This document shows positions 16,319 to 48,069 of a DNA stretch of 48,107 nucleotides, in pieces. The notes under the pieces were generated by a model that was not told the origin of the DNA, did no database searches, and saw only the letters and a program-made list of their open reading frames with translations. Both the position numbers and the translations under genes were made by a program. The stretch covers positions 1-48,107 of the forward strand of contig JAEEHB010000006.1 in NCBI GenBank assembly GCA_016280595.1, given 5' to 3'. The first letter of the stretch is position 1. The number at the start of each line of letters is the position of its first letter. The DNA is from Clostridiaceae bacterium. Lineage in GTDB: Bacteria > Bacillota > Clostridia > Oscillospirales > Acutalibacteraceae.

Positions 16319-16723
16319 TTATTTTTTCTTGATGAGGTCGCTGAGTTTTTTGCCGTAGAAAAAGTCGTGCACCATTTTGTCATATTCCTCCCACATCGGC
16401 AGGGTGCGGCAGGAGCCCTTTCTCGGGCAGTCGTTTTCTTCACCGGCAAGGCAGGCGACCGAGCAGAGCGGACCCTCCATTAGTTCAATCACTTCGCCTA
16501 TGATATAATCCTTCGGCTTGCGGCAGAGTTTGTAACCTCCGCCCTTGCCGCTCGCGCCCACAATAAAGCCGGCCTCGACCAGGTCTTTTACAATTATCTC
16601 AAGATATTTTTTTGATATTTCCTGCCTCGCGGCAATATCTTTGAGAGGAATGTATCCGCCGTTGTCGTTTTCTGCAAGGTCTATAAGCACGCGGATTGCG
16701 TAACGGCCTTTTGTTGAAATCAT
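16319..16723 (-). CDS. Rrf2-family transcription regulator (IscR/CymR-like)
   Basis: 134 residues. An N-terminal winged helix begins MISTKGRYAIRVLIDLAEN, includes the DNA-recognition helix (ISKKYLEIIVKDL, 36-48) and the wing GASGKGGGYKL. Cysteines C87, C91, C99 and C105 lie where IscR binds its 2Fe-2S cluster (C-x5-C-x5-C in E. coli, here C91-x7-C99-x5-C105), so it probably senses Fe-S or cysteine status. A strong candidate target set lies 2 kb downstream: nifS-nifU and metY-cysK, both behind an ACCTA-N9-TAGGT palindrome. It follows the small acidic-protein gene by 18 bp, so the two are probably co-transcribed. No copy of that palindrome is visible in its own promoter. Confidence 0.9.
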   Translation of the reverse strand: MISTKGRYAIRVLIDLAENDNGGYIPLKDIAARQEISKKYLEIIVKDLVEAGFIVGASGKGGGYKLCRKPKDYIIGEVIELMEGPLCSVACLAGEENDCPRKGSCRTLPMWEEYDKMVHDFFYGKKLSDLIKKK

Positions 16724-18595: not shown

Positions 18596-18618
18596 TTACC
18601 TATTGACATAGTAGGTAA
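18596..18618. promoter_or_regulatory. Palindromic operator overlapping the nifS promoter (Rrf2-type candidate)
   Basis: TTACCTA (18596-18602) and TAGGTAA (18612-18618) are perfectly complementary around a 9-bp centre that contains the -35 box. The same palindrome precedes metY (20618-20638). Confidence 0.75.
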
Positions 18619-18653: not shown

Positions 18654-18890
18654 ACCGCCGCGCGAACAGCCGGCACGTCCACCCACCTACAAAATGGCAG
18701 GTATCCACATACACTTGTACCACTAACCTACTGGGTTAGTGCAAAGTAGGCTTAACGTGAGCCTTCAGGTAAAATCAACCGGGCACAATCAGGCGGGCAT
18801 ATATCCACCACTCCACCTCAAAATGGTCGATACCCCTATACGCATATACCACCAACCTGCTAGGTAAGTGCAAATAGTACTGTAAAAATA
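18654..18890 (+). ncRNA. Tandem structured leader module upstream of nifS (candidate cis-regulatory RNA)
   Basis: Two related modules lie 130 nt apart. Module A has CCACCTACAAAATGG (18683-18697), a CACTAACC/GGTTAGTG hairpin (18721-18741) and then GTGCAAAGTAG. Module B has CCACCTCAAAATGG (18813-18826), the equivalent hairpin with two mismatches (18850-18870) and then GTGCAAATAG. An AGGCT/AGCCT hairpin (18748-18764) joins them. The arrangement recalls tandem riboswitches, but I do not recognise the class; no T-box, SAM, TPP or glycine signature is present. The rest of the 18477-18999 gap is T-rich and ends in an AATTG/CAATT hairpin before the AGGAGA ribosome site. Confidence 0.55.
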
Positions 18891-18999: not shown

Positions 19000-20184
19000 A
19001 TGATTTATGCAGACAATGCCGCGACCACAAAAATGAGCGATGCCGCCGCCGAAACTATGGCGGCGCTTATCAGAGACTGCTGGGGCAATCCGTCCAGCCT
19101 CTATTTGCACGGGCAGAAGGCGAAGGAAGCGCTCGAAAAAGCGCGCGAGGATGTTGCCGCCGTTATCGGCGCGTCGCCGCGTGAAATCTATTTCACTTCC
19201 GGCGGCAGTGAGAGTGACAACCAGGCGATTGTTTCCGCCGCGCGGCTCGGAAAAGAGAAAGGCAAAACGCACATCATATCCACCGCCTTTGAGCATCATG
19301 CCGTTTTACATACGCTTGAAAAGCTGAAAGACGAAGGCTTTGACATAACTCTGCTTCCCGTTCACGAAAACGGAATTGTCCGGCCTGACGAAGTAGAGGC
19401 CGCAATCACCGATAGCACCTGCCTCGTTACCGTGATGTTCGCCAATAACGAAATCGGTACCGTTCAGCCCATACGCGAAATCGGCGCGGTCTGCAGAAAG
19501 CACGGCGTGCTCTTTCACACGGATGCCGTTCAGGCAATCGCACATATTCCCGTGAATGTAGCAGACGACAATATCGATATGCTCTCCGCTTCGGCGCATA
19601 AATTTCACGGTCCTAAAGGCTCTGGCTTCCTATATGTGAAAAAAGGCATAAGGCTCACAAATCTTATTGAAGGCGGCGCGCAGGAGAGAGGAAAGCGCGC
19701 GGGCACCGAAAACGTGCCGGGCATCGCCGCTATGGCGAGGGCGCTTAAAGACGAGAGTGCAAAAATCGATGAAAACACCGCCCGGCTTGTTACACTTCGC
19801 AATAAACTCATTGACGGGCTTTCGCAGATTGAACATTCCGCCCTCAACGGCGACCCCGAGCATAGGCTTCCCGGCAATGTGAACTTCTGCTTCGAGGGGA
19901 TTGAAGGCGAGGCGCTTCTTCTCTTGCTTGACAGCAAGGGAATAGCGGCATCATCCGGCAGTGCCTGCACTTCCGGCTCGCTTGACCCGAGCCACGTGCT
20001 GCTCGCAATCGGCAGACCGCACGATGTGGCGCACGGCTCTCTGCGTCTGAGCATAGGCCCCGACCTCACGGACGACGAGGCAGATTACATTATAAAGTCC
20101 GTTTCGGAAGTTGTTGATTATCTGAGAAGTTTTTCTCCCGTGTGGAGAGATTTACAGTCCGGCAAACTGAGTCATTTACTTTAA
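19000..20184 (+). CDS. nifS: Cysteine desulfurase (NifS/IscS type)
   Basis: 394 residues, a class V PLP enzyme that removes sulfur from cysteine as a persulfide for Fe-S cluster assembly. The PLP lysine is K201 (SAHKFHGPKGSG), the ring-stacking histidine H100 (FEHHAV), and the catalytic cysteine C323 in the flexible loop SSGSACTSGSLDPSHVL. Loop length and SACTSG put it in the group I, NifS/IscS-like class. AGGAGA precedes the ATG. It is followed 12 bp later by a NifU/IscU scaffold. Expression is probably controlled by the palindromic operator and the long leader. Confidence 0.95.
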   Translation: MIYADNAATTKMSDAAAETMAALIRDCWGNPSSLYLHGQKAKEALEKAREDVAAVIGASPREIYFTSGGSESDNQAIVSAARLGKEKGKTHIISTAFEHHAVLHTLEKLKDEGFDITLLPVHENGIVRPDEVEAAITDSTCLVTVMFANNEIGTVQPIREIGAVCRKHGVLFHTDAVQAIAHIPVNVADDNIDMLSASAHKFHGPKGSGFLYVKKGIRLTNLIEGGAQERGKRAGTENVPGIAAMARALKDESAKIDENTARLVTLRNKLIDGLSQIEHSALNGDPEHRLPGNVNFCFEGIEGEALLLLLDSKGIAASSGSACTSGSLDPSHVLLAIGRPHDVAHGSLRLSIGPDLTDDEADYIIKSVSEVVDYLRSFSPVWRDLQSGKLSHLL

Positions 20185-20196
20185 GGAGGAACAGAG

Positions 20197-20577
20197 ATGG
20201 CACTTTACAGCGAAAAAGTTATGGATCATTTTCTTCATCCGCGCAACGTGGGTATCATCGAGGATGCCGACGCGGTAGGCGAGGTAGGCAACGCGAAATG
20301 CGGAGATATAATGAAAATGTATCTTAAAATAGAAAATGATATTATAACTGATGTGAAATTTGAAACCTTCGGCTGCGGCAGCGCGATTGCGTCAAGTTCA
20401 ATGGCAACCGAACTGATTAAAGGGAAACCCGTTTCCGAAGCGCTGGAACTTACAAACAAGGCGGTCGCCGAGGCGCTTGACGGCCTGCCCGATTATAAAA
20501 TGCACTGCTCGGTGCTTGCCGAGGAGGCAATAAAATCAGCGCTCGAAAACTACAACAAGGGCAAGGAAGAAGCCTGA
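20197..20577 (+). CDS. nifU: Fe-S cluster scaffold protein (IscU/NifU N-domain)
   Basis: 126 residues. The three scaffold cysteines are present: C35 (GNAKCGD, with D37), C60 (FGCGSAIASSS) and C104 (MHCSVLAEEAI). The protein receives sulfur from the desulfurase and assembles 2Fe-2S/4Fe-4S clusters. The length fits a stand-alone U-type scaffold without the NifU ferredoxin and C-terminal domains. AAGGAGG lies before the ATG, 12 bp after nifS. The protein is cytoplasmic. The hydrogenase and the many cluster enzymes in the window are plausible clients. Confidence 0.95.
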   Translation: MALYSEKVMDHFLHPRNVGIIEDADAVGEVGNAKCGDIMKMYLKIENDIITDVKFETFGCGSAIASSSMATELIKGKPVSEALELTNKAVAEALDGLPDYKMHCSVLAEEAIKSALENYNKGKEEA

Positions 20578-20617
20578 CAGCGGCACCCCGCGAAAAAAAC
20601 ACGAAAAAAATTCTTAA

Positions 20618-20638
20618 AACCTATTGACATAGTAGGTT
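20618..20638. promoter_or_regulatory. Palindromic operator overlapping the metY-cysK promoter
   Basis: AACCTA (20618-20623) and TAGGTT (20633-20638) surround the identical 9-bp centre TTGACATAG seen before nifS. The shared 19-bp core implies one regulator for both operons. Confidence 0.75.
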
Positions 20639-20652
20639 AATAGTGATATAAT
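20624..20652 (+). promoter_or_regulatory. metY-cysK promoter
   Basis: TTGACA (20624-20629) and TATAAT (20647-20652) have 17-bp spacing, with the same architecture as the nifS promoter. Confidence 0.85.
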
Positions 20653-20682
20653 CACGGCAACTTAAGTAAAGGAGGCGCAACC

Positions 20683-20808
20683 ATGTATAACAGCATCACC
20701 GTAAAAACGAATACCTGTATGTGGTGTCGAATGCTGAACTCCCGGGCAAGTAATACGGCCGGGGCGTACGGCGATATTTCGCTGCGCCTCAATACAGAAC
20801 GATGTTGA
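20683..20808 (+). CDS. 41-residue cysteine-containing leader peptide
   Basis: This ORF begins 7-8 nt after AAAGGAGG, the best ribosome site in the region, and lies directly downstream of the metY promoter. The peptide starts MYNSITV, has CMWC at residues 12-15 (TGT codons at 20716 and 20725) and ends TERC with a Cys codon immediately before TGA. It has no transmembrane or domain features. Codons 19-23 overlap the left arm of an 11-bp stem (20739-20749), so ribosome position can change the RNA fold. This is the design of an amino-acid attenuator leader, here tuned to cysteine. That role is inferred from sequence layout; I know of no verified family match. Confidence 0.7.
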   Translation: MYNSITVKTNTCMWCRMLNSRASNTAGAYGDISLRLNTERC

Positions 20809-20866
20809 ATCTGTAATAAGTTTATGCCGTTTGCCCGGGAGCCGAATAAGCCCCCGGTTATTTTTT
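20739..20866 (+). promoter_or_regulatory. Putative cysteine-responsive transcription attenuator upstream of metY
   Basis: A long-range 11-bp perfect stem pairs 20739-20749 with 20831-20841. Its right arm also contains CCGGG (20835-20839), which can instead pair with CCCGG (20853-20857) just before a T-rich tract (20858-20866). An overlapping AATAA-CC/GG-TTATT hairpin (20845-20862) is also possible. The first stem would act as antiterminator when ribosomes stall at the upstream Cys codons. The second forms when they proceed. The energetics are not computed. Confidence 0.55.
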
Positions 20867-20919
20867 GCATAAAACTCATCTCACAAAAACAAAAATCTTA
20901 AATTAAAGGAGAAACAATC

Positions 20920-22203
20920 ATGAGTAATTATAAATTTGAAACCCTTCAGTTACACGTAGGCCAGGAGCAGGCGGACCCCGCAACCGATTCCAGAGCCGTT
21001 CCCATTTATCAGACCACTTCTTACGTTTTCCATAACAGTCAGCATGCGGCGGACCGTTTCGGCCTCGCAGACCCCGGCAACATCTACGGCAGACTTACCA
21101 ACAGCACTCAGGATGTGCTTGAAAAGAGACTTGCGGCCCTTGAAGGCGGCAGCGCGGCTCTCGCCCTTGCATCCGGTGCGGCGGCAATCACTTACACAAT
21201 CGAAGCCCTTGCGGCAAACGGCGGTCACATTGTGGCGCAGAAGACAATCTACGGCGGCAGTTACAACCTGCTTTCACACACTCTGCCGCAGTACGGTATC
21301 GAAACAACTTTTGTTGACGCTCATAATCTCGCGGAGGTTGAGGGCGCAATCAAAGAAAACACGAGAGCCATTTATCTTGAAACTCTCGGCAACCCCAACA
21401 GCGATATTCCCGATATCGACGCCATAGCCGAAATCGCTCACAGATACGGCCTGCCCGTTGTGGTGGATAACACCTTCGGCACACCTTATCTTATCAGACC
21501 CATTGAGCACGGTGCGGATATAGTCGTTCACTCCGCCACCAAATTCATCGGCGGCCACGGCACAACTCTCGGCGGTATTATAATCGAGTCCGGCAAATTC
21601 AACTGGAAGCAGAGCGGCAAATACCCCAACATCGCCGAAGCAAATCCGAGTTATCACGGCGTTTCATTCTATGATGTTGTAGGCCCGGCGGCATTTGTCA
21701 CCTATATCAGAGCGGTGCTTCTTCGTGACACCGGCGCGGCGATTTCCCCCTTCAACGCATTCCTTCTTCTGCAGGGCGTGGAAACCCTTTCATTAAGGCT
21801 TGAAAGACACGCCGAAAACACCAAGAAGGTTGTTGAGTATCTTGCTTCGCATCCGCTTGTTGAAAAGGTAAATCACCCCTCACTGCCCGGCCATCCCGAC
21901 CACGCTCTTTATGAAAAATACTTCCCCGACGGCGGCGCGTCAATCTTTACATTTGATATCAAAGGCGGCAGAGAGGAAGCCTGGAAATTCATAGATAACC
22001 TCACCATTTTCTCACTGCTCGCAAATGTGGCGGACGTCAAGAGCCTTGTGATTCACCCCGCATCAACCACTCACTCACAGCTTTCCGACGAAGAACTGCT
22101 CGATCAGGGCATCGGTCAGAATACAATCCGCCTTTCAATCGGCACGGAACACATTGACGATATAATCGCAGACCTTGAAAACGGCTTTGCCGCAATTAAA
22201 TAA
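20920..22203 (+). CDS. metY: O-acetylhomoserine aminocarboxypropyltransferase / O-acetylhomoserine sulfhydrylase
   Basis: 427 residues, Cys/Met-metabolism PLP enzyme family. PLP lysine K208 is in [12 protein letters not shown]; the Y-x-R substrate motif is seen as IYGRLTNST. The roughly 430-residue length with extended C-terminal half and the [11 protein letters not shown] insertion fit the MetY group rather than MetB/MetC. It makes homocysteine (or methionine) from O-acetylhomoserine and sulfide, and some members also use O-acetylserine. AAAGGAG is placed before the ATG. It is first in an operon with cysK and is controlled by the palindromic operator and probable attenuator. Confidence 0.92.
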
Positions 22204-22217
22204 CGGAGGAAAAGAAA

Positions 22218-23150
22218 ATGTCAAATATATATAAAGGAACACTCGGCCTTGTAGGCAACACACCTCTTGTGGAGGTTGAAAACATAGAAAAAGAACTCGG
22301 CCTTGAAGCGACTGTGCTTGTGAAACTTGAATATTTTAACCCTGCAGGCAGCGTGAAAGACCGCATAGCAAAGGCGATGATAGAGGACGCCGAGGCAAAG
22401 GGCCAGCTCAAAGAAGGCTCGGTTATCATTGAGCCGACCAGCGGAAATACAGGCATAGGCCTCGCTTCAATCGCCGCCGCAAAGGGCTACCGTATTATCC
22501 TCACGATGCCCGAAACGATGAGCGTTGAGAGAAGAAACATCCTCAAAGCCTACGGCGCGGAACTTGTGCTCACAGAGGGCGCGAAGGGTATGAAGGGTGC
22601 GATAGCCAAGGCGGAAGAACTTGCCGCCGAAATACCCGGCTCGTTCATTCCCGGGCAGTTTGTAAACCCCGCAAACCCCGCAATCCATAAGGCGACAACG
22701 GGTCCCGAAATCTGGAACGACACCGACGGAAAAGTTGATATCTTCATCGCAGGCGTGGGCACAGGCGGCACGGTTACGGGAACGGGCGAATACCTCAAAG
22801 AGCAGAATCCCGCGGTAAAGGTAGTTGCCCTTGAGCCGGAAGATTCACCCGTACTTTCCGAAGGCAGACCGGGCAGCCATAAGATTCAGGGCATAGGCGC
22901 GGGCTTTGTGCCGGATGTGCTCAACACGGGCGTATATGACGAGATTTTCAAAGCGTCAAATCAGGATGCTTTTGATACCGCAAAACTCCTCGCAAAGAAA
23001 GAGGGCATCTCGGTAGGCATTTCATCGGGCGCTGCTCTCTACGGCGCAATTCAGCTTGCGAAACGCCCTGAAAACAAGGGCAAGGTGATAGTAGCCCTCC
23101 TGCCAGACAGCGGCGACAGATATTATTCCACCGCCCTTTTCACAGAATAA
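22218..23150 (+). CDS. cysK: Cysteine synthase A (O-acetylserine sulfhydrylase)
   Basis: 310 residues, fold type II PLP enzyme joining sulfide and O-acetylserine to give cysteine. PLP lysine K47 lies in NPAGSVKDR, the substrate loop is [10 protein letters not shown] (about 75-84), the phosphate-binding loop is [10 protein letters not shown] and the active-site serine motif is GISSGAA. Length and motifs match CysK rather than cystathionine beta-synthase forms. GGAGGA precedes the ATG, 14 bp after metY. It closes the sulfur operon, with a strong terminator 6 bp downstream. Confidence 0.95.
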
Positions 23151-31808: not shown

Positions 31809-33329
31809 TTATTTCATTTCGGGGTCTTCAGTGAGTATGTCTTCCGCAAACTCCGCGTTCATTTCAGGGTAGGCGGAGAGCATCGGCTCAATATCCGCGC
31901 CCTTCTTTCTGTCAAAGTAGTTGCGTGTAATCTTCACCACGAGGCCGCTTAGCGCGATAACGCAGATTAAGTTGGGAAGAGCCATAAGACCGTTGAAGGT
32001 GTCGTCAATCGCCCAGATGAGGTCGCTCTTGATGAGTGATGAAACAGCGATGAGTACCACATAGATTACCTTGAAAGCGGTGATTATATATCTGCGCTTT
32101 TCTTCCTTCACCTTGCCGAATACGAATTCAACCGCCTTCTCGCCGTAGTAGGACCAGGCGATAACCGTAGTGAAAGCAAACAGGGGCAGGATGATTGAGA
32201 ATACCGCCGTGCCGAATCCGCTGAATGTGTTTGAAAACATATTCATTGACATAATGCTGTCTTCAAGGTCGGATGAAAGATTATTAAGATCAAAACTTGT
32301 GAGGAACATGAGAGCGGTAAGTGTGCAGATGATGAAGGTGTCAAAGAAAACTTCAAACACGCCCCAGAGACCCTGCTTAACGGGCTCTCTTGTTTCGGAT
32401 GCCGAGTGGGCGATAACGGATGAGCCGAGACCCGCCTCGTTTGAGAAAACGCCTCTCGCCATACCTTTTCTTATAACCTGCGCAAAGCCGTAGCCGAGTA
32501 TACCGCCGCCTGCCGCTTTGAAGTTAAAAGCCTTTGAGAAGATGAGGCCGAGCGAGGAGGGGATGTTTCTGAAATGAATCACAATAGCGATAATTGACAT
32601 CACGATGAAGAGGAGCGACATAAACGGCACAAGCATTGAGGCAACCTTGCCTATGCGCTTGATACCTCCGATTATAACTATCGCGGTCATAATTGCGACT
32701 ATGATGCCGACTATAAGTTTGATTGTGCCGGTATTCTGCGCTGAAGTTGCTCTTGAAAACGCCTCTGAGAGAGTGCCGGAGATTTTGTTGGTCTGCACGC
32801 CGCTCATACCGATAGCCGCGAGCATACAGAATACGGCGGCAAGGTAGCCGAGCCATTTCCATTTAAGACCGTATGCGATATAGTAAAACGCGCCGCCCGA
32901 GAGGTTGCCGTTTTTATCTTTCTTTCTGAAATAGAGGCCGAGCACGTTTTCCGCGTAGTTTGTAACCATACCGAAGAAAGCGGAAACCCACATCCAGAAA
33001 ACTGCGCCGGGGCCGCCTGTGAGTATGGCGGAAACAACGCCTACTATGTTTCCGGTGCCGACGGTGCCGGAGATGGCGGTTGAGAAGGCCTCAAACTGAG
33101 AAACGGAGTTTACTCTGCTGTCCTTCGCCTTCTTTTTGCCAAGGCTTTTGAGGGTGGGGATGATGGTTGTGTTGAGGGATTCGCCGAAATGGGTAACCTG
33201 CAAAACCCTTGTTCTTACGGTGAGGATGAGACCTGTGCCGAGAATCAGGATGATAACGGGCCAGCCCCATACGATACCGTTGACCACATTGTTTACATTT
33301 TCAATTACGGTCAGTACTTTTTCAAGCAT
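31809..33329 (-). CDS. Sodium:alanine/glycine symporter (AGCS family)
   Basis: 506 residues with about 11 transmembrane segments. Family marks include VWGWPVIILILGTGLILTVRT near the N-terminus, FEAFSTAISGTVGTGNIVGV (about 79-98), GPGAVFWMW and ARGVFSNEAGLGSSVIAHS (about 290-310). It takes up alanine or glycine with Na+. AAGGAG precedes the ATG. A glycine riboswitch and intrinsic terminator in its leader show that glycine controls the gene. It is monocistronic, with its terminator split by a repeat element. Confidence 0.95.
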   Translation of the reverse strand: MLEKVLTVIENVNNVVNGIVWGWPVIILILGTGLILTVRTRVLQVTHFGESLNTTIIPTLKSLGKKKAKDSRVNSVSQFEAFSTAISGTVGTGNIVGVVSAILTGGPGAVFWMWVSAFFGMVTNYAENVLGLYFRKKDKNGNLSGGAFYYIAYGLKWKWLGYLAAVFCMLAAIGMSGVQTNKISGTLSEAFSRATSAQNTGTIKLIVGIIVAIMTAIVIIGGIKRIGKVASMLVPFMSLLFIVMSIIAIVIHFRNIPSSLGLIFSKAFNFKAAGGGILGYGFAQVIRKGMARGVFSNEAGLGSSVIAHSASETREPVKQGLWGVFEVFFDTFIICTLTALMFLTSFDLNNLSSDLEDSIMSMNMFSNTFSGFGTAVFSIILPLFAFTTVIAWSYYGEKAVEFVFGKVKEEKRRYIITAFKVIYVVLIAVSSLIKSDLIWAIDDTFNGLMALPNLICVIALSGLVVKITRNYFDRKKGADIEPMLSAYPEMNAEFAEDILTEDPEMK

Positions 33330-33388: not shown

Positions 33389-33407
33389 AAAAATACAAAA
33401 CGCATCT

Positions 33408-33548
33408 TATTACCTCCGTCCTTTTGCCTGAGAGATTAGAGAGCGGCGCTCCTTTGCCCCTTCGGCATCCAATCTTGTTGGAATTCTCCGGAGTTCGTCA
33501 GCAAACAGTCAAGAGACTCTTCTGCATGCTTCATACGAACCTGTTCAT
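33408..33548 (-). ncRNA. Glycine riboswitch (single complete aptamer)
   Basis: On the minus strand the conserved core reads GGAGA ... GCCGAAGGGGCAAAGGAG ... AATCTCTCAGGCAAAAGGAC-GGAGG (33410-33495), diagnostic of glycine aptamers. Only one full aptamer is visible. The 5' segment forms a GTTCGT/ACGAAC-closed stem (about 33495-33543), as in singlet riboswitches with an upstream ghost aptamer. In the known class, such singlets often control transporters. The exact fold was not computed. Confidence 0.9.
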
Positions 33549-47632: not shown

Positions 47633-47708
47633 GGGAGCATAGCTCAGCTGGGAGAGCACCTGCCTTACAAGCAGGGGGTCACAGGTTCGAGCCCTGTTGT
47701 TCCCACCA
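47633..47708 (+). tRNA. tRNA-Val (anticodon TAC)
   Basis: Acceptor GGGAGCA/TGTTCCC with one G-U pair, anticodon loop CTTACAA in a CCTGC/GCAGG stem, T-loop GTTCGAGCC and encoded CCA. Confidence 0.98.
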
Positions 47709-47712
47709 ATAT

Positions 47713-47789
47713 GGCCCGGTAGCTCAGTTGGTTAGAGCACCAGCCTGTCACGCTGGGGGTCGACGGTTCGAGCCCGTTCCGGGTCGCCA
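47713..47789 (+). tRNA. tRNA-Asp (anticodon GTC)
   Basis: Acceptor GGCCCGG/CCGGGTC, anticodon stem CCAGC/GCTGG around CTGTCAC, discriminator G and encoded CCA, as in bacterial tRNA-Asp. Confidence 0.98.
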
Positions 47790-47828
47790 TTGGCCTGTGT
47801 AATGCAAGTTATGCAGGCCTCTTTTTAT

Positions 47829-47904
<76 letters not shown>

Positions 47905-47909
47905 TGTTT

Positions 47910-47985
47910 GCGGATGTAGCTCATCTGGTAGAGCGCCACCTTGCCAAGGTGGAGGTAGCGAGTTCGAGCCTCGTCATCCGCTCCA
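47910..47985 (+). tRNA. tRNA-Gly (anticodon GCC)
   Basis: Acceptor GCGGATG/CATCCGC, anticodon stem CCACC/GGTGG around TTGCCAA, discriminator T and encoded CCA. Confidence 0.98.
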
Positions 47986-47994
47986 TTTTTTTAT

Positions 47995-48069
47995 TGTACC
48001 ATAGCCAAGTGGTAAGGCAGCGGTCTGCAAAACCGCGATTCCCCAGTTCAAATCTGGGTGGTACCTCCA
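47995..48069 (+). tRNA. tRNA-Cys (anticodon GCA) with unusual first base
   Basis: Anticodon loop CTGCAAA between GCGGT and ACCGC, D-arm AGCCAAGTGGTAAGGC, discriminator T and encoded CCA, all typical of tRNA-Cys. The acceptor reads TGTACCA against TGGTACC, so pairs 2-71 to 7-66 form, but base 1 is T opposite C72 instead of the usual G-C. Confidence 0.93.

Follow-up and report, generated by a model that had tools for sequence, protein, structure and literature searches.

A likely cysteine-codon transcription attenuator ahead of metY and transporter genes in Clostridia

Here we describe a leader, found ahead of sulfur amino-acid genes in Clostridia, that is likely to be a transcription attenuator reading the supply of charged Cys-tRNA. 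What the computation shows is a conserved leader ORF, its Cys codons, covarying stems, the gene context and an operator motif; ribosome stalling, termination, the response to cysteine and the binding of a repressor are all inferred, and there are no expression or in vivo data. The analysis concerned a leader in a stretch of 48,107 nucleotides of DNA from a Clostridiaceae bacterium (hereafter, the window), in which genes for an Rrf2 regulator and an MFS transporter, nifS-type and nifU-type genes, metY and cysK are neighbors (Table 1).

A preliminary description, made from the sequence alone, had listed a promoter, a Shine-Dalgarno sequence, a 41-codon ORF with Cys codons at positions 12, 15 and 41, an 11-bp long-range stem, and a CCCGG ahead of a T-rich tract. 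All of these held, and every coordinate was correct. The Cys codons start at 20716, 20725 and 20803, the last being immediately 5' of the TGA; CTCCCGGGCAA at 20739-20749 is the exact reverse complement of TTGCCCGGGAG at 20831-20841; and the CCCGG lies at 20853-20857, followed by the T-rich tract. The terminator stem of the window, CCGGGAGC (20835-20842) with GCCCCCGG (20850-20857), has an A-C mismatch, and its hairpin was computed at -11.4 kcal/mol. Folding of the RNA from 20750 onward, i.e. without arm A, gives the terminator hairpin; a simple terminator scan found no site at the window leader. By chance alone, the promoter scan would report 0.9 promoter-like sites in a stretch of this kind, an inverted repeat of at least 11 bp with a loop of at least 20 occurred in 3 of 2000 mononucleotide shuffles of the leader stretch, and the RNA of 20660-20875 is more stable than its shuffles (z -3.0, 1/200). 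The decisive support for the element is its conservation in other genomes.

Table 1. Coordinates of the features at the window locus and the basis on which each was assigned.
Feature	Position	Strand	Basis or remark
Rrf2-family regulator, candidate operator binder	16319..16723	-	Pfam Rrf2 3.6e-32; link to operator inferred
Operator motif CCTATTGACATAGTAGG, palindromic, overlapping the -35 box	20620..20636	+	probable Rrf2-type site; binding by Rrf2 protein inferred
Promoter, sigma-70 type, TTGACA-17-TATAAT	20624..20652	+	consensus match 12/12, 17-bp spacer
Shine-Dalgarno AAAGGAGG of the leader ORF	20668..20675	+	sequence
Leader ORF, 41 codons, MYNSITVKTNTCMWCRMLNSRASNTAGAYGDISLRLNTERC	20683..20808	+	sequence; frame kept in relatives
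Cys-Met-Trp-Cys codons (TGT at 20716 and 20725), proposed stall site	20716..20727	+	Cys at -1/-2 of CGA in relatives
CGA-ATG (Arg-Met) codon pair, nearly invariant	20728..20733	+	comparison of leaders
Antiterminator arm A, CTCCCGGGC	20739..20747	+	covariation; pairing in the window extends to 20749
Helix A2, 5' arm ACGGC, partner 20826-20830	20755..20759	+	covariation; partner-swap control
Helix P2, 5' arm GGGGCG, partner 20785-20790 (CGCCTC)	20761..20766	+	covariation
Helix P2, 3' arm (CGCCTC)	20785..20790	+	covariation
Arg-Cys-stop (CGA TGT TGA), ORF end	20800..20808	+	in-frame CGATGT in relatives
Helix A2, 3' arm GCCGT	20826..20830	+	covariation
Arm B, GCCCGGGAG; pairs with A, or with C (in part, as 5' half of terminator)	20833..20841	+	covariation; A-pairing in the window begins at 20831
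Arm C GCCCCCGG (20850-20857) and T-rich tract; intrinsic terminator with 20835-20842	20850..20866	+	pairing in relatives
metY, O-acetylhomoserine/O-acetylserine sulfhydrylase type	20920..22203	+	Pfam Cys_Met_Meta_PP 3.7e-134
cysK-type PLP enzyme	22218..23150	+	Pfam PALP 8.5e-78

Relatives were collected in several ways. A DNA search of 200 genomes of the same family gave nine matches, the window itself included, and six more leaders were usable. A pattern scan of named genomes (CGAATGCKNNNCTCCCGGGC) returned at least 119 stretches, with titles examined for 80, and amounts to a sample. Six loci without a leader ORF were excluded as chance matches (L047, L048, L060, L101, L121 and L123); the five of them that were checked had no arm B, and four carried titles from other phyla. 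The duplicate sites L131 and L145 were also left out. From 121 starting sites (113 from the scan with the window, and 8 others), seven were dropped (two for N, four cut by the end of the DNA and one duplicate), leaving 114 leaders, 106 found by the pattern and 8 not. Two covariance models were built, R1 from seven leaders and R2 from 48, and 60 leaders found by model were aligned (A7). This alignment replaced an earlier one (A4), which had taken in 16 weak matches on the reverse strand of the palindromic stem; L030, a near-duplicate of L022, is left out of A7 as well.

Comparison of these leaders shows that the leader ORF is real and that cysteine is its theme, although its translation remains an inference. 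A Cys codon lies one or two codons 5' of CGA-AUG in 104 of the 106 pattern-found leaders, the collecting pattern being blind to the codons upstream of CGA, and likewise in all eight leaders not found by the pattern. At positions -10 to -5 only 27 of 636 codons are Cys. Among 107 leaders, 96 have in the Cys frame an ORF that follows a Shine-Dalgarno sequence and stays open through arm A; the other two frames have one in 5 and 10. The second Cys codon, in a CGA-UGU near the end of the ORF, is in frame in 38/38 occurrences in the same 107 leaders, and 29 of the ORFs having at least 18 codons from CGA onward terminate in Arg-Cys. UGU and UGC are used 156 and 19 times at -2/-1 of the leaders, and 9 and 43 times in the genes behind them. 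The stop codon precedes arm B in 114/114 leaders, at a median of 28 nt. An automatic count found the Cys codons in 55 of the 60 model-found leaders; it should be noted that this count is not blind to Cys, as Cys codons were present in the sequences used to build R1 and R2. The preliminary description had suggested checking whether related regions keep the ORF and its Cys codons, and these counts answer that they do.

The exceptions are few and of different kinds. In the model-found set, one attenuator, L176/L257, keeps arm A and the terminator but its ORF is free of Cys codons; L175 and L029 have arm A and no Cys 5' of CGA, with Cys further along the ORF; L186 has arm A and Cys at -3 instead of -1/-2; and, in the pattern-found set, L094 and L134 have arm A without the usual Cys codon. 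The fifth miss of the automatic count, L190, is a frame misassignment, the DNA reading TGTTGTCGAATG. Separately, the Arg-Cys-stop of the window and its relatives is a conserved ORF end to which no role has been assigned.

One alternative is that the region is an ordinary 5' leader carrying a terminator-like hairpin and the gene of a small CxxC protein. The CxxC motif in the genome of the window speaks for it. Against it, the peptide is variable among leaders outside the Cys codons and the part constrained by the RNA; its length varies, the stop lying 21 to 105 nt downstream of CGA; the window peptide has no Pfam or NCBIfam match; and arms A and B covary. We consider this explanation very improbable.

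The second line of evidence for the attenuator is the RNA structure. In the antiterminator, arm A pairs with arm B (9 pairs) and is continued by A2 (5 pairs), together enclosing P2 (6 pairs). Across the 60 model-found leaders, 90.1% of cells are paired, 13 of the 20 pairs show two-sided changes, and 66 cells are changed on both sides, compared with 20.5 in shuffles. The covariation is 0.217 against 0.138 in shuffles (0/500), and versions slid along the alignment give 0.041-0.067. By helix, A:B is paired in 97.9% of cells with 3/9 pairs changed on both sides, and such changes occur in 5/5 pairs of A2 and in 5/6 of P2. Variants of the A/B arms include CTCCCGGAC/GTCCGGGAG, CTTCCAGGC/GCCTGGAAG and CTCCCAGGC/GCCTGGGAG. 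A partner-swap test also supports A2 (mean helix 5.72 vs 5.26, sd 0.11). A caveat is that A7 was fitted to the structure of the model, the very structure under test. In the 48-leader set, 89.7% of cells are paired and covariation is 0.157 against 0.119 shuffled (0/500); in this set arm A is fixed by the search pattern for most members. The preliminary description, which had proposed a covariance-model check, had equated the antiterminator with the 11-bp stem. The antiterminator helices do covary, and the equation held in part: A, A2 and P2 all take part.

The claim that arm B can instead pair with the CCCGG before the T-rich tract also held, with B:C paired in 79.5% of cells and 4/8 of its pairs changed on both sides in the 60 model-found leaders. 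The structure made of the terminator and a 1:2 stem gives a covariation of 0.129 against 0.111 shuffled (0/500) in these leaders, and of 0.119 against 0.114 (30/500), barely above shuffles, in the 48-leader set. Thus, the computation shows an antiterminator and an intrinsic terminator that exclude each other and have arm B in common, the terminator side being weak on the 48-leader set.

Two further structures were considered and not retained. The 1:2 anti-antiterminator stem would join CGAAUGC (20728-20734) to GCGUACG (20764-20770), together with CCCGG:CCGGG, and about 80% of its cells pair; its 5' side is nearly fixed, it uses bases in common with P2, and the energy control described below is negative, leaving it a mere possibility. 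A third hairpin, P3, suspected by eye around the stop codon, is unsupported (mean z -0.37, 89 leaders). Among the leaders themselves, L190-L193 of genus g333 are diverged, with up to three per genome, and their different arms can still pair at least partly.

A metabolite-binding riboswitch that overlaps an ORF by chance would also have a long-range stem, a multi-helix fold and nearly invariant nucleotides. Against it, the ORF frame and the in-frame Cys codons are conserved, and the stretch separating the arms varies, being far shorter in L020, L024, L026 and L190. Moreover, Rfam gave nothing credible at the window leader at curated thresholds, and only three weak matches, far under the thresholds, with permissive filters (20560-20960, up to E 10). 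No covariance match to the T-box (RF00230) was found in the window, and none up to E 10 at 20560-20960; SAM riboswitches likewise had no Rfam match in the window or at 20560-20960. A riboswitch is therefore a very remote alternative.

Returning to the attenuator, its proposed operation is as follows. The leader ORF would be translated by a ribosome trailing the RNA polymerase. When charged Cys-tRNA is scarce, the ribosome would stall at the UGU codons immediately 5' of CGA-AUG. Ribosome footprints extend about 12 nt beyond the start of the A-site codon, and arm A begins 14 nt past the first base of the Cys codon at -1; the front edge of the stalled ribosome would thus lie approximately at the start of arm A, leaving A free. 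Free A, with helices A2 and P2, would allow A:B pairing, so that B could not form the terminator and metY-cysK would be transcribed. When charged Cys-tRNA is plentiful, the ribosome would cover A, reach the stop codon about 20-40 nt 5' of B and disturb A2/P2. With A covered and A2/P2 disturbed, B would pair with C and transcription would stop. An Rrf2-type repressor acting on the promoter would probably constitute a second layer.

Folding energies computed for different ribosome positions are in line with this scheme. The median energy of the antiterminator minus that of the terminator is +0.4 kcal/mol without a ribosome, -3.3 with a ribosome on the Cys codons, +3.3 with one at the stop codon and +14.3 with one over A. 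The antiterminator is accordingly favored in 47/114 leaders without a ribosome, where the two states are near equal, in 81/105 with a ribosome at the Cys codons, in 31/105 with one at the stop and in 0/114 with one over A. The window values are approximately -5.1 (no ribosome), -10.5 (Cys codons) and +11.4 kcal/mol (over A). The antiterminator of the window is thus favored by about 5 kcal/mol without a ribosome, and default termination would therefore have to be kinetic or dependent on translation. The shift on stalling is not specific: shuffling the 23 nt under the ribosome gives the same shift, the native sequence being stronger in 53/114 (p 0.08). Since the effect does not depend on these particular 23 nt, the additional 1:2 stem is unsupported, and a simpler account is that a moving ribosome covers A and a stalled one leaves it free. 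Taken over all leaders, moving the ribosome changes the RNA state in the direction expected of a Cys attenuator, with the reservation that these are energies only and that the stall effect is not sequence-specific. The preliminary reading as a cysteine attenuator is supported by the comparison of leaders, its response to cysteine being inferred.

The genes behind the leaders fit this role, the preliminary expectation of metY/cysK-type genes having held: sulfur amino-acid genes lie downstream. The downstream proteins of the named loci were scanned over at most their first 250 residues. Of the 101 proteins, 62 matched Pfam Cys_Met_Meta_PP, 14 the NlpA lipoprotein family, 10 SBP_bac_3 (family-3 solute-binding), 6 BPD_transp_1 (ABC permeases) and 2 ABC_tran (ABC ATPases), with one match each to HTS (homoserine O-succinyltransferase), PALP, iron alcohol dehydrogenase and M20 peptidase; NCBIfam TIGR01326 (O-acetylhomoserine sulfhydrylase) matched 62 of the 101. 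At ten other named loci, the DNA in view contained no ORF behind the leader. For 60 model-found loci, the matches were Cys_Met_Meta_PP (33), BPD_transp_1 (8), NlpA (6), ABC_tran (4), SBP_bac_3 (1), PALP (1) and an SDF symporter (1); one further model-found locus, L159, had no downstream ORF. No tRNA synthetase family occurs among the Pfam families of the 161 downstream proteins scanned. The leaders thus mainly precede metY and genes of methionine/cystine-type ABC transporters, transport of cystine or methionine being an inference.

The preliminary description had also placed attenuation on top of an Rrf2-type operator. The motif held: it occurs upstream of 88 of 112 leaders, as the exact 17-mer in 49 of the 112, compared with a mean of 1.3 and at most 5 in shuffled upstream stretches, and the window has two exact copies against 0.06 matches expected. 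An Rrf2/CymR-type operator motif is hence conserved at the leader promoters, and its binding by an Rrf2 protein is inferred. The second exact operator-promoter in the window lies at 18599-18615, ahead of the nifS-type gene at 19000. Between them are two 67-nt direct repeats (18679-18745 and 18808-18874, 73% identical), without a credible Rfam match up to E 10, which could conceivably be a tandem RNA element.

In the genomes sampled, the leader is patchy and mostly confined to the class of the window. Model matches at E 0.001 or better occurred in 18/398 genomes of the window's family (with R1), 26/394 of the order, 13/391 of the class and 2/299 of the phylum, the window's genome being counted. 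In family f52, picked for an earlier match, 23/200 genomes matched at the same threshold. These genome samples overlap, and strict filters were applied. Titles in the pattern scan include Lachnospiraceae, Saccharofermentans, Ruminococcaceae, Oscillospiraceae, Ruminococcus, Blautia, Gemmiger and Christensenella records. A single Atopobacter record and two MAG contigs of Coriobacteria type also occur, and these contigs may be misbinned. Phage-borne copies were considered and rejected: five matches on viral contigs had neither leader nor arm B and were put down to chance on inspection by eye. Among the 17 metY copies viewed in related genomes, counting the window, the leader is present at 8 and absent from 9. 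The leader therefore turns over quickly, which weakens the attenuator reading without refuting it.

The strongest rival concerns the CGA-AUG pair. In this explanation, the nascent chain at Arg-Met would stall in response to a sulfur metabolite, and the Cys codons would only modulate the arrest. The near invariance of the pair supports it (CGA in 52 and ATG in 53 of the 60 model-found leaders), as do the attenuator L176/L257, already mentioned for its lack of a Cys codon, and a second class of uORF. Seven of the nine leaderless metY copies have, by eye, a short uORF containing Arg-Met. When 69 genomes were searched for NFR(C/F)GR-Met without regard to the Arg codon used, nine sites emerged (reversed control, 0), eight ahead of metY and one ahead of a lipoprotein-like gene; eight of the nine had no attenuator arm in a simple test and no R2 match. 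NFRFGRM uORFs ahead of metY had no R2 match at 10 of 11 loci tested. The second Arg is CGA in 25/25 NFR(C/F)GRM uORFs, including 11/11 that were not selected for CGA, with the other codons varying synonymously, and of the 718 Arg codons in genes downstream of the attenuators only 18 are CGA. Of the 10 NFRFGRM uORFs that have no arm A, 5 carry a Cys codon directly after Met and the other 5 a stop. Against the arrest peptide, the main MCC-R-M class has no peptide conservation upstream of the Cys codons, and nearly all of its leaders have these codons. Moreover, L166, L169 and L171 lack CGA-ATG and L192 keeps the ATG alone, all four retaining Cys runs, and one codon of the pair is changed in L021, L162, L164 and L173. 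We therefore regard an arrest peptide as unlikely and retain the Cys-codon attenuator.

The invariant CGA in the uORFs of attenuator-less relatives remains unexplained, and for this reason a bolder reading may be entertained, in which CGA-AUG Arg-Met would be a stalling module in its own right, common to two metY-controlling leader classes of Clostridia: the Cys-codon attenuator, and the NFRFGRM class, mostly without attenuator structure and often without Cys. If true, NFRFGRM would be a new arrest peptide that responds to a sulfur compound, and the attenuator would combine codon sensing with arrest. In any case, the near invariance of CGA-AUG and the NFRFGRM uORFs pose the question of codon- or peptide-dependent stalling. 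These uORFs were seen at L236, L237, L244 and L256-L264, with codons synonymous save for the invariant CGA. Beyond the preliminary description, the analysis adds helices A2 and P2, Arg-Cys close to the end of the ORF, the CGA-AUG pair and this second, attenuator-less class of leader peptide.

Ribosome-mediated attenuation by Cys codons has been proposed before, and no description of a clostridial Cys attenuator was recognized in the open-access literature searched (preprints excluded), in agreement with the preliminary statement that no such system was known in Clostridia; we therefore see the leader as a new family of a known kind of attenuation. One close proposal is uORFC-8-2, ahead of cysS in Rhodobacterales, for which ribosome-mediated attenuation by Cys-tRNA was put forward (PMC8632094). 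In both, tandem Cys codons lie in a uORF, and stems and an intrinsic terminator are present. However, uORFC-8-2 belongs to Alphaproteobacteria, occurs only ahead of cysS, is dominated by UGC instead of UGU and has its Cys codons within the first stem, whereas the clostridial leaders are not ahead of cysS, as the absence of synthetase families above indicates; neither CGA-AUG nor the Arg-Cys end is mentioned for it in the sections bearing on the motif. The Cys leader peptides of Mycobacterium, P. acnes and B. longum (PMC1262725), all Actinobacteria, are likewise encoded by short ORFs that contain Cys-codon runs and precede cys or cbs genes, but no conserved terminator hairpin is reported for them and the Cys run is near the stop. 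The His leader peptide of hisS/hisZ in bacilli (PMC2965389) is also an amino-acid leader-peptide attenuator of Firmicutes, for a different amino acid and different genes. The trp and his attenuators of enterobacteria combine a leader peptide, stall codons and alternative terminator and antiterminator structures. In these, a separate region 2 forms the antiterminator, while the 5' arm of the clostridial one lies within the ORF, just after the stall codons, where an unstalled ribosome would cover it.

In Clostridium, a Cys-specific T-box senses the charging of Cys-tRNA and controls cysK and transporters by premature termination (PMC2940859); unlike the present leader, it reads the tRNA directly, has no ORF and carries the T-box motif; Rfam finds no T-box at the window locus. 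Cysteine control in C. perfringens has been attributed to T-boxes, some clostridia have none, and other controls may exist (PMC2940859). The leader family would be one such control without a T-box, stacked on an Rrf2-type operator motif. Its carriers are records of Lachnospiraceae, Ruminococcaceae and Saccharofermentans type, many of them of gut or rumen origin; two, Lachnospiraceae AB2028 (L081) and Ruminococcaceae KHP2 (L105), are apparently cultured. The leader would mark genes for the uptake and synthesis of cysteine and methionine in unannotated genomes.

Two other elements were seen in the window. A glycine riboswitch aptamer lies at 33406-33501 on the minus strand, ahead of an ORF (31809-33329, minus strand) that by eye resembles a sodium/amino-acid symporter, and five tRNA genes are clustered on the plus strand at 47633-48066.
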